The position numbers and the translations under genes were made by a program. A stretch of 64,000 nt of DNA from an uncultured Lachnospiraceae bacterium (GTDB taxonomy: Bacteria > Bacillota > Clostridia > Lachnospirales > Lachnospiraceae), in contig CAMUYQ010000002.1 of the NCBI GenBank assembly GCA_947165025.1, positions 186,001-250,000 of the forward strand, read 5' to 3'. The notes under the pieces were generated by a model, which had not been told where the DNA came from, did not search any database, and saw nothing but the letters and a program-made list of their open reading frames with translations. Numbering within the stretch: position 1 is the first letter of the stretch; every line of letters starts with the position of its first letter. This document shows, piece by piece, positions 9,677 to 14,280 of the stretch.

Positions 9677-11704
9677 ATGCTCGAAGGAAACATTTACGCG
9701 GTAACTGGACTCGTAAGCGCTTTTGTGTGCCTTGCGATATACCGCTGCAACAACACCATATATGAAAAGGACAACAAGATCAGAAGTTACTTCTCGTTTC
9801 TTCTGATCAACTTCATTTTCTGTAATCTTATCGATGTTCTGTGGGGATTCATGAACACGAAGACTATCGATCCGGGTCGCGGAAGTTTTGTTGCCGTATC
9901 ATTTCTGATCCATCTGGATGTCATATTTGTCGCGGCATGCTGGTGCATTTTCCTGACATCTTATTTCGGCTACAAAGAGAACAGAGCGGTCATGATATTG
10001 CAGTGTTTTCCGCTTGCGATCGCGCTTGTTATTCTTGCCGGGCAGTTTGTGTCCAATACCGTCTTTGTGATCGATGAAAACGGTGCATATTCTTCGGGAC
10101 CGTTCAGGCTGTCGATGTTTTATATCCAGTACAGCTATTATGTTATCGCTTTCGTGAAGATAATATATTTTGTCATCAGAAACCGTCATGAAAGCACGTA
10201 CAGATATAAAACGCTCGTTATAGGCAGTTCGCTTATCCCGATCGCATTCGGGATACTCCAGTACCGGTATCCGGACGGCCCATATACGTCGCTCGGTTTT
10301 GTGCTCAGTTCGATCGTTGTGTTCAACGGTATGATGGTGATCGAAAAGAGCCGCAATTCCAAACGTTATGAGGTTATCTCAAAGGGAACGTACATGACGC
10401 TTGAAGCGGTCACGCAGGGCTTTGTGTCGGCGATCATGGTCGATCTGGTAAAGGGCAATTTCTCGGTCATCAAATCAACGCCTTATGCGGATGCACTTGT
10501 TGAGCGTGACAAACCTATCAGAGAAATGATCCTTAAGGTTTTCAGAAATGCTGTCAAACCGGAATTCCTTGATGAGATCATGGAATTCGCGGATATCGAC
10601 AAGCTCCCGGAGAAAATGGTCAACCGTCGCAGCATCAGCACTCAGTACTGCTCCGAAGGAATAGGCTGGTGTATAGCAAGTTTTATCGCCGTAGAACGTG
10701 ACGAGGAGAGAAACCTCAGGAAGGTTGTTCTTGTTGTTCAGTCGATAGATGAGTTCAAAAAGCGTGAACTTGAATATGAAAATGCTCTCTCAAGGGCATA
10801 CAAGAACGAGAATGCGATCCTTGCCGAGCTTATCAAGATGCAGGCCGTCGGAGTCCTTGCCTCCGACGAAAATCGCAGGATCCTCGTTGCAAATGATGCC
10901 CTGCTTGAGATGTTTGACAGGAAGGGTTCCGATCCGATAGGAATGAACGTTTTCAATTTCTGGAACGAGTCAAGACTGCCCGTTGATGAAGAAACAAGAG
11001 CCAGATATGACAGGATCGAAGCCGAGGGCGGAGAGTTTACATATGAGCTTGAGACAGGTGAGGGGGACGACGTTAGCTATCTGATGGCTGAGGCCAAGAG
11101 AGTAGATCTTCTTGATGGAACAAAGGTAATGGTATCGTGCTTTACCGATATCACCCAGGCCAAGATACTTGAGGAGAAGCTGCGTACCCTTTCCGAAACG
11201 GACGGTCTTACGAGGATCGCAAACAGGAGATGCGGTGAATCGCAGATCAATGTTCTGCTTCAGGAGGGTATCCCGGGAACCTACTGCCTGTTTGATGTTG
11301 ACGGGTTCAAGAAGATAAACGACACGTACGGCCACCAGACCGGTGATGATACGATCGTTGCCGTGGCAAATGCGATGAAAGCAAGCTTCAGATCAAATGA
11401 TATATTCATGCGACTTGGCGGCGATGAATTTGCCATATATATAAGGGGTGTTGTCACAACCGAACTTGCAAGGATCAAGATAGCAAGACTGTTTGAGAAC
11501 ATTGCCAGGATAGAACTTCCGAATGTTCCGAAGGGATCCATCAATATAAGTCTCGGTGCAGTCGTAGTAAAGGCAAAGGACGGAGTCATCATGGAAGATT
11601 ACGCATCCATCTATAAGCGTGCCGATACTCAGATGTACAAGTGCAAAGAAAAGACAGGATCAGTAATGTCGATAGAGGAAGGAAAACAAGATGAAGAATC
11701 CTAA
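9677..11704 (+). CDS. Diguanylate cyclase with membrane sensor, PAS and GGDEF domains
   Basis: A 675-residue protein. The N-terminal 220 residues hold about seven hydrophobic helices like the 7TM sensor of some histidine kinases. A linker and PAS-like region (about 390-500) follow, then a GGDEF domain. The active motif GGDEF is residues 581-585, and RSND at 572-575 fits the RxxD inhibitory site with the correct 5-residue spacing, so both synthesis of cyclic di-GMP and product feedback are expected. The gene starts 18 bases after metY, and its end overlaps the radical SAM gene by 14 bases, placing it in the same transcription unit. Why a cyclase is linked to that pair is unknown. Confidence 0.9.
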   Translation: MLEGNIYAVTGLVSAFVCLAIYRCNNTIYEKDNKIRSYFSFLLINFIFCNLIDVLWGFMNTKTIDPGRGSFVAVSFLIHLDVIFVAACWCIFLTSYFGYKENRAVMILQCFPLAIALVILAGQFVSNTVFVIDENGAYSSGPFRLSMFYIQYSYYVIAFVKIIYFVIRNRHESTYRYKTLVIGSSLIPIAFGILQYRYPDGPYTSLGFVLSSIVVFNGMMVIEKSRNSKRYEVISKGTYMTLEAVTQGFVSAIMVDLVKGNFSVIKSTPYADALVERDKPIREMILKVFRNAVKPEFLDEIMEFADIDKLPEKMVNRRSISTQYCSEGIGWCIASFIAVERDEERNLRKVVLVVQSIDEFKKRELEYENALSRAYKNENAILAELIKMQAVGVLASDENRRILVANDALLEMFDRKGSDPIGMNVFNFWNESRLPVDEETRARYDRIEAEGGEFTYELETGEGDDVSYLMAEAKRVDLLDGTKVMVSCFTDITQAKILEEKLRTLSETDGLTRIANRRCGESQINVLLQEGIPGTYCLFDVDGFKKINDTYGHQTGDDTIVAVANAMKASFRSNDIFMRLGGDEFAIYIRGVVTTELARIKIARLFENIARIELPNVPKGSINISLGAVVVKAKDGVIMEDYASIYKRADTQMYKCKEKTGSVMSIEEGKQDEES

Positions 11705-13082
11705 ACGCGTGTTAACCTACATCAGGGAAAATATGGGAGAGGTAAAACACACGACGCTGAACCCCGAGGGGCCCGGCGTTGTCCGCATTCATATGGTGCC
11801 TCCGAAATATGACGGTCCCGAACCTGTAGGAAGTGTTGTCATTTTAAACGGTCAGGACATCATACCTATAGGAGTATCATGGGCAGTGCTTCTGTCACTT
11901 CTCATAGATTCGATCAACGAGTATCACGGAAGACCCATATCCGAAGAAGATACAAAGAAGATCGTTGACAGCACTGTTATCGCTGCACGTCACATATACC
12001 GTTTTCTGCCGAAGTTCCTGATCAGAAGGGATATCTTCAGGATAATGAACACATTCAAGCAGATCGCATACGGCGAGAAGCCCGATGAGGAGATACAGTA
12101 TATCAATATAAGCGAGTATGCCGACAGCATGAGGGCACCTCACAGGATGGATCTTCTCGTATCTGCGATGGAGAAGGAGAGCAGATGGAACTGCAACCAG
12201 AAGTGTGTTCACTGTTATGCCGCGGGGCAGGCCGAAGCGTCGGAAGAGGAACTTTCAACCGATGAGTGGAAACAGATAATAGACAAGTGCAGGGTCTGCT
12301 GCATCCCGCAGGTGACTTTCACCGGAGGTGAGCCCACGATGAGAGATGATCTTGTCGAACTCATCAATCATGCGAGATGGTTTGTGACAAGGCTTAACAC
12401 GAACGGTATCAACCTTACGAAGGAATATTGCAAAGAACTGTTTAATGCATCACTCGACAGCTGTCAGATAACGTTCTATTCATACGATAAAGATATACAC
12501 AACGAACTTGTCGGCGCACCGATGTACGATAAGACTCTCGAAGGGATAAAGAATGCGATAGAAGCAGGGCTGAACATCAGCATAAATACACCGCTGTGCA
12601 CGAAGAACAGAGACTATGTTGAAACGCTTAAGTTCCTTCATGGTCTTGGAGTTTCATATGTCACATGTTCGGGACTGATCATGACCGGAAATGCTACTCT
12701 TCCCGAATCGGAAAATCTCCAGTTGTCAAAGGATGAGATCAAAAAGATACTTCAGGATGCCGTGGACTACGCATATGCAAACGACATGGAGATAAGCTTC
12801 ACATCGCCCGGATGGATCGATGATGATGAGTTCTTTGAGAGGAACGGACTTAACAAACCGACTTGCGGTGCATGCCTTTCAAACATGGCCATCACGCCGG
12901 GCGGAAACGTTGTTCCGTGTCAGAGCTGGCTGACAGAAGGAAATCTCGGAAACTTCCTTGAGACGGACTGGCAGAAGATATGGCACAGCGGAAAGTGCGA
13001 GAACAGAAGATATTACTCGGCGATGATGACCGGACTGTGTCCGCTTCGCAAGATGGAGGAAGGAGGCTCATATGAGAAATAA
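11691..13082 (+). CDS. Radical SAM/SPASM enzyme, RiPP-maturase-like
   Basis: A 463-residue enzyme. C168, C172 and C175 form the CxxxCxxC ligand set of the radical SAM iron-sulfur cluster (WNCNQKCVHCY), and TFTGGEPTMRDD is the GGE motif for SAM. The C-terminal part has cysteines C392, C395, C410, C436 and C450 spaced like a SPASM auxiliary-cluster domain. Residues about 36-115 precede the core and could be a PqqD-like peptide-binding region; this is tentative. Proteins of this plan usually modify peptides. The stop lies 11 bases inside the next gene, whose product has a Cys-Ala repeat tail and is the obvious substrate candidate. No experiment is known to me for this pair. Confidence 0.85.
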   Translation: MKNPKRVLTYIRENMGEVKHTTLNPEGPGVVRIHMVPPKYDGPEPVGSVVILNGQDIIPIGVSWAVLLSLLIDSINEYHGRPISEEDTKKIVDSTVIAARHIYRFLPKFLIRRDIFRIMNTFKQIAYGEKPDEEIQYINISEYADSMRAPHRMDLLVSAMEKESRWNCNQKCVHCYAAGQAEASEEELSTDEWKQIIDKCRVCCIPQVTFTGGEPTMRDDLVELINHARWFVTRLNTNGINLTKEYCKELFNASLDSCQITFYSYDKDIHNELVGAPMYDKTLEGIKNAIEAGLNISINTPLCTKNRDYVETLKFLHGLGVSYVTCSGLIMTGNATLPESENLQLSKDEIKKILQDAVDYAYANDMEISFTSPGWIDDDEFFERNGLNKPTCGACLSNMAITPGGNVVPCQSWLTEGNLGNFLETDWQKIWHSGKCENRRYYSAMMTGLCPLRKMEEGGSYEK

Positions 13083-14280
13083 GATCAGACTTTTCGTACT
13101 CAGTCTCCTGACATTTATCATGATGTTTGCCGTTCCTGTAATGGCGGATACGGATGAGATACTCAACTATACGATCACGGTAGATGTCAATGATGATGCG
13201 ACACTTAACCTTAATTATCATATCGACTGGAAGGTGCTTGACTCCGGATCGGGAATAGGTCCGCTTTCGTGGATGAAGATAGGTATCCCGAACAGACATG
13301 TAGTATCGGCTGTCGGAAAGAGTGACACAGTCAGCCGCATCAGTCTGTCGGGCAACTATGCAGAGGTATATCTTGACAGGGACTACTATCAGGGTGAGAT
13401 TGCGAGCGTTGATTTTCTCGTGGTACAGGATTACATGTACCAGGTTGACAAGCTCAAGGAAGGTGAGACCGTCTACTCGTTCACGCCCGGATGGTTTGAC
13501 GACATCAAGGTTGATGAACTTGAGATCAGATGGAACAACAATAAGGCAGTTGCGTTCACTCCCGACTGTCTGATGGACGGTGACTACAATGTGTGGAACA
13601 CAAGTCTGAAAAAGGGCGGTAAGTATACGGTCACCATGACATATCCGAATGATGCATTCGGATTCGATCTGTCAAAGAGTGCCGAAGAGGACGACAGCAG
13701 TACTTTAGGTGATACGATCGCGACGATCATCGCCATGATCTTTGGGATGATCATGATCGGTGCATTCATAATGATACCGGTTCTTATCGGATACCTGTTT
13801 AATGCCGGATTCTCGGCCCTGAACAAACCGACGATCAACAAGACGACGAGAACGAAGGTTACGTATTTTGATTCCTGCCCCGGCTGCGGAGCGCCGCGAA
13901 AAGAGGGAGCGAAGTTCTGCGAGTACTGCGGAAAATCACTTGTAAAGAGTGAGGAGACGATCACCGAGGAACAGCTAAAGAAAGAGGAAAAAGCTGCAGC
14001 GGCATTTACGAAGAACGGGGAATACAGATACGGTTCTTCGCCCAATACGTTCATAAGGGTAAGCTCGGTAAGTGTACCGAATCCCAGATACCGTGCTCCT
14101 TCTTCAAGAAGCAGCGGCGGCAGTCACCATTCATCATGTGCTCACAGCTCGTGTGCATGTGCGTGCGCATGTGCATGTGCAGGCGGCGGAAGAGCGGGCT
14201 GCACTATGAAGGACTTCTACAATACGGATCTTAAGTTAGCGGCCATAGCAAAAGCGACCGGTATGGAGAAAAAGCATTGA
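13072..14280 (+). CDS. Membrane protein with zinc ribbon and C-terminal Cys-Ala repeat tail
   Basis: A 402-residue protein. A signal peptide (1-25, ending in VMA) leads to an extracytoplasmic beta-rich domain (about 26-210) resembling the N-terminal domain of DUF2207-type proteins. A long hydrophobic segment follows (about 211-245), then a cytoplasmic zinc ribbon (CPGCG...CEYCG, about 269-289), a Ser/Arg-rich linker, and a tail with Cys at 356, 361, 363, 365, 367, 369 and 377 (SCACACACACAGGG, then RAGC). The predicted topology puts the tail in the cytoplasm, where the radical SAM enzyme encoded just upstream could reach it. The next gene starts inside the stop codon. A modified-peptide or metal-binding role for the tail is inference; the repeat codons are mostly TGT GCA. 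Confidence 0.8.
   Translation: MRNKIRLFVLSLLTFIMMFAVPVMADTDEILNYTITVDVNDDATLNLNYHIDWKVLDSGSGIGPLSWMKIGIPNRHVVSAVGKSDTVSRISLSGNYAEVYLDRDYYQGEIASVDFLVVQDYMYQVDKLKEGETVYSFTPGWFDDIKVDELEIRWNNNKAVAFTPDCLMDGDYNVWNTSLKKGGKYTVTMTYPNDAFGFDLSKSAEEDDSSTLGDTIATIIAMIFGMIMIGAFIMIPVLIGYLFNAGFSALNKPTINKTTRTKVTYFDSCPGCGAPRKEGAKFCEYCGKSLVKSEETITEEQLKKEEKAAAAFTKNGEYRYGSSPNTFIRVSSVSVPNPRYRAPSSRSSGGSHHSSCAHSSCACACACACAGGGRAGCTMKDFYNTDLKLAAIAKATGMEKKH

Follow-up and report, generated by a model that had tools for sequence, protein, structure and literature searches.

In a 64,000-nucleotide stretch of DNA from an uncultured Lachnospiraceae bacterium (contig CAMUYQ010000002.1, positions 186,001 to 250,000; hereafter the window), the gene for a radical SAM enzyme is followed by the gene for a membrane protein that ends in a tail of repeated Cys-Ala units. 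That the enzyme is dedicated to the adjoining tail is well supported by their joint occurrence across genomes, and we consider it fairly probable that it acts as a maturase that places thioether links on the Cys-Ala units. The pair is found in many gut and rumen bacteria from several bacterial lineages.

Joint occurrence of enzyme and tail

Contigs of one genome per species (84,980 species) were scanned for DNA coding for CACAGGGRAGC. The scan yielded at least 119 stretches with at least 122 tails, 121 of them distinct among the matches listed. The titles of 80 of the 119 listed stretches name mostly Lachnospiraceae, Oscillospiraceae and other Clostridia; the other carriers among these 80 are some Bacilli (Acholeplasmatales, Anaeroplasma) and two Eggerthellaceae assemblies. 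Gemmiger formicilis ATCC 27749, a cultured bacterium, is among the carriers of the tail (L051). A profile built from seven enzymes and run on every frame of the listed tail loci located an enzyme within the retrieved DNA of the locus for 97 of the 122 listed tails, within 300 bases and on the same strand for 91 and elsewhere for 6; the latter cases reflect second tail genes, one divergent copy, a frame shift or a start placed too far upstream. For the 25 listed tails without an enzyme in the fetched DNA, 24 of which have their tail frame less than 330 bases from the upstream end of the DNA, a whole-genome search found the enzyme in 21, with the tail adjoining it in 19 of these 21 loci. The sequence-only reading had named frequent tails without the enzyme as the finding that would speak against a link; such tails number 4 of 122 among those listed, of which L068, L101 and L104 lie at contig ends. 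The fourth, L062, is a 5′-truncated remnant that lacks its start and signal peptide and follows another gene at a short distance. Two different tail genes accompany one enzyme gene within a single locus in L041, L099, L124 and L184.

The reverse comparison, from enzyme to tail, gave a matching picture. Among 391 genomes of the class, the enzyme (E 1e-80) was present in 10, a true tail in 10 and both in 9 (Fisher p 1.9e-16 for 9/1/1/380), which bears out the co-occurrence that the sequence-only reading had put up for checking. In genome G639 the tail is adjoined by an enzyme fragment cut at the contig end; genome G599 (locus L163) has a divergent enzyme and no tail. The genome search scored up to four candidates per genome, and a missed enzyme is therefore possible. 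The looser pattern CACACAG, present in 16 of the 391 genomes, was rejected as proof of a tail: 10 matches are true tails, five hit one shared segment of a large membrane transporter and one is a chance frame. These six were kept as a control and left out of the tail count. In L170, L173, L174, L175 and L176 the sequence VACACACAGM lies within a long membrane protein in an unrelated setting, presumably a TRAP transporter.

Among 295 genomes of the order, the seven with an enzyme at E 1e-60 are the same seven that have a clear homologue of the tail protein. The tail-protein search there gave 24 matches at E 0.001, of which seven are clear homologues (E 4.4e-19 or better); the other 17 were set aside as weak, mostly zinc-ribbon matches. 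One match lying in the folded domain (L029) appeared unrelated. A search of 398 genomes of the phylum added 14 more distant enzymes outside the class, and these, together with the 10 of the class and 5 further ones, make up an enzyme-first set of 29. An adjacent Cys-Ala tail was present in the available flank for 25 of the 29, with two tails cut at the end of the DNA; for the remaining four, the tail is on another contig of the genome in L159 and L162, the region is masked by N in L211, and L163 has none.

The distant enzymes fall into two groups, f155/f217 (317–346 bits) and f114/f119 (211–223 bits), which carry full SPASM domains and adjoin their own versions of the tail. In f155/f217 the next gene encodes a homologous membrane protein (hhalign 99.9%, four of ten used) with the typical end GCACVSCACACVSCACACACAGGGGAGC; in f114/f119 the membrane-protein gene stands before that of the enzyme, and its more remotely related product (hhalign 92%, E 6e-7) terminates in SSCACACACACASSGGCT or SCACACACACAGGGGCT. 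A divergent branch within the class, represented by two genomes, has GGGRVGCSERG. The tail version thus changes with the enzyme group, the co-variation that the sequence-only reading had suggested looking for. Across 68 pairs, enzyme and partner distances correlate with a Spearman coefficient of 0.81, a value obtained without a control gene that may partly reflect species descent.

Location on a mobile element was considered and rejected. No stretch with the CACAGGGRAGC code was found in virus contigs, and a plasmid search at 1e-50 gave no match. One phage-named carrier, L222 (MT837216.1), is a 7.4-kb unverified record from human faeces named Bacteriophage sp.; it is probably a bacterial contig under a wrong label.

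The Cys-Ala unit and the two proteins

The enzyme-first set is free of the bias of the search pattern. In it, the residue after a non-final tail cysteine is Ala in 149 cases, Val in 19, His in 2 and Tyr in 1 (Ala or Val in 168 of 171), and the residue before those cysteines is Ala in 119, Ser in 34, Gly in 15, His in 2 and Tyr in 1. In the pattern-first set, Ala follows 782 of 811 non-final tail cysteines among the matches listed, two per tail being fixed by the pattern. Runs that the pattern does not fix number 148 (103 and 45); they begin with Cys in 147 instances and end with Ala in 117 and with Cys in 31; Val comes next in 15 of the 16 Cys-ended runs of the enzyme-first set (counted by eye). 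Spacers between units are HSS, S, SS or HS. It follows from the starts and ends of the runs and from these spacers that the Cys-Ala dipeptide is conserved, and not the alternation as such. Such a unit would be expected if each cysteine pairs with the residue behind it, by analogy with the pairing of each Cys with an Asp in freyrasin (PMC8172795). The codons of the repeat are mixed, which points to selection at the protein level: identical hexamers stand next to each other in (CA)n codons in 83 of 514 cases against 99.6 expected for independence, and an origin by chance, low complexity or a DNA microsatellite was ruled out accordingly. We found no Asp or Glu within the listed Cys-Ala runs, and two zones show one only via a lone upstream cysteine; an acidic acceptor at fixed spacing, as in ranthipeptides, is thus not seen in these runs, a comparison that covers acidic acceptors only.

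The membrane protein of the window has a hydrophobic stretch at its N-terminus, followed by a folded domain, a single transmembrane helix, the zinc ribbon and then the tail. As first read from the sequence, the tail contains seven cysteines (residues 356, 361, 363, 365, 367, 369 and 377), five of them alternating with Ala, followed by GGGRAGC; the tryptic peptide SSGGSHHSSCAHSSCACACACACAGGGR contains six of the seven. Because 22 of the 26 aligned proteins were picked through the motif, the invariance of the tail core among them is largely by construction. The segment behind the tail lies outside the searched motif, and some tails in the wider tail list deviate there. Judged by eye, 17 of the 26 lack the zinc ribbon, and all of these retain the tail.

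The signal peptide and the single transmembrane helix would place the Gly/Ser-rich, presumably flexible tail on the cytoplasmic side and the folded domain outside. The cytoplasmic tail of the sequence-only reading fits these features as a predicted location. Some relatives start with a charged segment and an apparent first transmembrane helix in place of the signal peptide, with the same side resulting. TIGR04222 was unmatched by the window protein up to E 0.1, and its neighbour is a radical SAM enzyme, not an MNIO. PF09972 (DUF2207) gave weak matches below the cut-off in two of five relatives scanned (E 0.01 and 0.058). In L036 (116–1969), a membrane protein near the pair, DUF2207-like by eye, has a Gly-rich tail without a Cys-Ala run.

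The window enzyme belongs to the radical SAM superfamily: it has the CxxxCxxC motif, matches PF04055 (E 1e-20) and shows the barrel in its structure model and PDB matches. The assignment to radical SAM/SPASM enzymes made from the sequence alone holds in its first part, and its second part needs narrowing. PF13186 matches with 29.5 bits (cut-off 21.5) over profile positions 1–52 of 67 only, and the CxxCxxxxxCxxxC block of the sister enzymes is absent from the window enzyme in the alignment, so that the domain appears to be a shortened, twitch-type version of the full seven-Cys SPASM domain. The structure model (predicted local distance difference test score, pLDDT, 86.7) comprises an RRE-like domain, the radical SAM barrel and the twitch-like domain. 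SkfB and SuiB are its closest PDB structures, with EpeE ranked well below both; sequence-profile and Foldseek searches of the PDB both put SkfB first. The SuiB and SkfB alignments, made with the whole-enzyme model, begin at model residue 19–31. When N-terminal pieces of four sister enzymes were scanned, two matched AlbA (E 1.2e-4 and 2.4e-5), over stretches that extend into the start of the radical SAM domain; a Pfam scan of the RRE-like region of the window enzyme gave no match. No NCBIfam radical SAM family cut-off was reached by the window enzyme, the best of 58 being TIGR04055 with 107 bits against a cut-off of 500, and for it and its sisters the matches in NCBIfam and Pfam were confined to general radical SAM/SPASM entries, with no named family. 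Coordinates of all features are collected in the table.

Table. Features of the gene pair in the window (positions counted from the first base of the window)
Feature	Position	Strand	Basis
Radical SAM/twitch (shortened SPASM) enzyme, 463 residues	11691..13082	+	open reading frame; PF04055; PF13186; model; PDB matches
RRE-like N-terminal domain, residues 19-126, four strands then three helices	11745..12068	+	model secondary structure; SuiB/SkfB alignments
Radical SAM cluster motif CNQKCVHC (C168, C172, C175)	12192..12215	+	invariant in 22 aligned enzymes
Twitch region with C392, C410, C450 (predicted auxiliary Fe-S cluster)	12864..13040	+	Cys invariant in 22 aligned enzymes, kept in sister groups
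Overlap of enzyme and tail genes, 11 bases	13072..13082	+	reading-frame coordinates
Membrane protein with Cys-Ala tail, 402 residues	13072..14280	+	open reading frame; zinc ribbon PF13240; homologues
Signal peptide (predicted), residues 1-25	13072..13146	+	hydrophobic stretch 3-27; helix 2-19 in model
Transmembrane helix, residues 209-244	13696..13803	+	hydropathy peak 219-237; helix 209-244 in model
Zinc-ribbon CxxC...CxxC (C269, C272, C283, C286)	13876..13929	+	PF13240 25.8 bits, cut-off 25
Cys-Ala tail CAHSSCACACACACAGGGRAGC, residues 356-377	14137..14202	+	translation; core invariant in 26 aligned proteins
Conserved post-tail segment TMKDFYNTDLKL...	14203..14277	+	K380 invariant, F382/Y383 nearly so, in 26 aligned proteins

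Proposed reaction and competing explanations

Judged by the fold, with its resemblance to SkfB, SuiB and CteB, and by the Cys-Ala unit, the thioether chemistry suggested in the sequence-only reading is plausible. Among the known reactions of the fold group, a thioether from cysteine would fit best, with the next Ala as the likely acceptor. We infer the tail as the substrate, an S–C bond as the product and the carbon used. The membrane protein would be inserted with its folded domain outside and the Cys-Ala tail in the cytoplasm, where the RRE-like domain of the enzyme would bind it. A 5′-deoxyadenosyl radical would then abstract hydrogen from a backbone carbon of the partner of each cysteine, most likely the following Ala (or Val), and the auxiliary cluster would accept an electron while the cysteine sulfur closes the thioether, with 2 Da lost per link. 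In a more specific form, each cysteine sulfur would be joined to Cα of the residue that follows; the outcome would be a row of 1,3-thiazinan-4-ones, six-membered rings of which the window protein could hold at most six. We regard this form as a tentative and, on its own, rather unlikely proposal. If true, the row would amount to a tail hardened ring by ring at the inner membrane face, for which we met no counterpart in the literature searched. What a modified tail would do is a matter of guesswork: it could handle metals or redox chemistry, or act at the membrane as a rigid element in signalling.

A metal-binding tail was the simpler option in the sequence-only reading. This alternative, an unmodified thiol-rich tail for metal or redox purposes with an enzyme that acts indirectly or elsewhere on the protein, draws on the zinc ribbon of the window protein and on the CxC repeats, which are characteristic of proteins that bind metals. 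Such a tail, however, would not call for a radical enzyme of its own, and metal binding alone leaves the enzyme unexplained, yet enzyme-less tails are confined to the four listed above; moreover, the tail persists where the zinc ribbon is missing. We therefore hold this explanation to be improbable. Alternatively, the enzyme could epimerise Ala from L to D within the run, so that an alternating L/D chain would carry its thiols on one side, free of crosslinks. An EpeE-type epimerase uses a hydrogen-donor cysteine, and no cysteine beyond the presumed cluster ligands is common to all enzyme groups. With C303 and C326 not conserved among the sister enzymes, such a universal donor is not seen. The low rank of EpeE among the structure matches and the spacers of one to three residues that interrupt the alternation likewise argue against epimerisation, which we judge quite improbable.

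Two further explanations keep the pairing and move the chemistry away from the cysteines or from the tail altogether. Modification of another residue near the end of the tail (Arg of GGGR, or Lys, Phe or Tyr of KDFY), the cysteines serving another role, would agree with the conservation of residues 380, 382 and 383; in the sister groups, however, the Cys-Ala run is retained where the conserved end differs (GGGGAGCARKF) or is lacking (C-terminal GGCT), and this variant appears very unlikely. The near one-to-one pairing and the overlapping genes would fit a complex in which the tail is not a substrate and holds the enzyme at the membrane as a partner, for example one receiving electrons or sulfur. 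The RRE-like domain, the best matches to peptide maturases and the loci with two tail genes for one enzyme gene all count against such a partner, and we give this possibility very little weight. Thioether formation on the Cys-Ala units thus stays the explanation that we favour. Tight pairing, a minimal two-gene layout and a simple repeated unit make the reaction directly testable, and the unit would offer a clean substrate for studying how one enzyme forms many successive links.

Gene setting and relation to known systems

Both reading frames are as the sequence-only reading had placed them, with the 11-base overlap confirmed. The pair is embedded in a tightly packed row of genes, as the 3′ end of a gene for a GGDEF protein with a PAS domain and a hydrophobic N-terminal half (9677–11704) overlaps the start of the enzyme gene by 14 bases. 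Downstream, a farnesyl diphosphate synthase-like gene (NF045485; 14277–15206) begins 4 bases inside the tail gene, and a LacI-type ligand-binding domain fused directly to GGDEF (PF13377, PF00990; 15280–17193) is encoded without an evident signal peptide at its start. Blast clustering of neighbouring frames across the 119 listed loci revealed no widely shared third gene beside the pair. Of the largest clusters, two comprise opposite-strand frames (15 and 9 loci) and one is a gene family found in 12 loci; the farnesyl diphosphate synthase-like neighbour recurs in 6 and the LacI-type/GGDEF-like gene in 7, and a GGDEF/PAS-type neighbour is absent from the 25 largest clusters listed. The simplest account, to which we incline, is that the two genes form a maturation module of a dedicated maturase and its membrane-bound substrate.

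The closest relatives in architecture are the sactisynthases SkfB, AlbA and CteB, radical SAM enzymes that form S–Cα thioethers. They combine the barrel with a SPASM or twitch domain and an RRE-like N-terminus, an architecture also predicted for the window enzyme, and they likewise adjoin the gene for a Cys-rich candidate substrate. Unlike in those systems, the presumed substrate here is the end of a membrane protein of about 400 residues in place of a small precursor peptide with a leader, and no protease or exporter is conserved beside the pair in the 119 listed loci. To our knowledge, (Cys-Ala)n corresponds to no known sactipeptide pattern.

Action on a protein has a parallel in QhpD, a radical SAM enzyme that makes several thioethers from Cys to Asp or Glu in the QhpC subunit (PMC7876137, PMC8172795); the Cys-Ala run, in contrast, is devoid of Asp and Glu, and its protein is membrane-bound. 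Several Cys-plus-acceptor units are described for the ranthipeptide freyrasin, on which PapB forms six Cys-Asp thioethers (PMC8172795), whereas the residue that recurs as presumed partner here is the Ala directly after each Cys. A thioether between neighbouring residues, closing a six-membered ring, is described for enteropeptin (PMC12395415). That molecule is a small peptide with one ring, and its acceptor, N-methylornithine, precedes the cysteine, whereas the acceptor proposed here follows it. For a Cys-rich membrane-protein end, the nearest case is that of MNIO enzymes beside TIGR04222 membrane proteins (PMC12452194), whose Ser/Gly/Cys-rich C-terminal region is the proposed substrate. That end is predicted to lie outside the cell, and 490 of 1372 genomes lack MNIO genes, so that the window pair differs from this system in enzyme class, in its tighter association and in the predicted side of the tail.

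A radical SAM maturase for a (Cys-Ala)n membrane-protein tail was not found in the titles and abstract beginnings of the open-licence literature, a prior description elsewhere being possible, and the pair is absent as a named family from the NCBIfam and Pfam libraries. Taken together, each ingredient of the pair has a known relative, in the sactisynthases, in QhpD acting on a protein and in the MNIO/TIGR04222 systems, and their combination appears new with respect to the literature searched; if the proposed chemistry is true, crosslinks made by radical enzymes would no longer be limited to small peptides for export and would also occur on tails of proteins that reside in the membrane.
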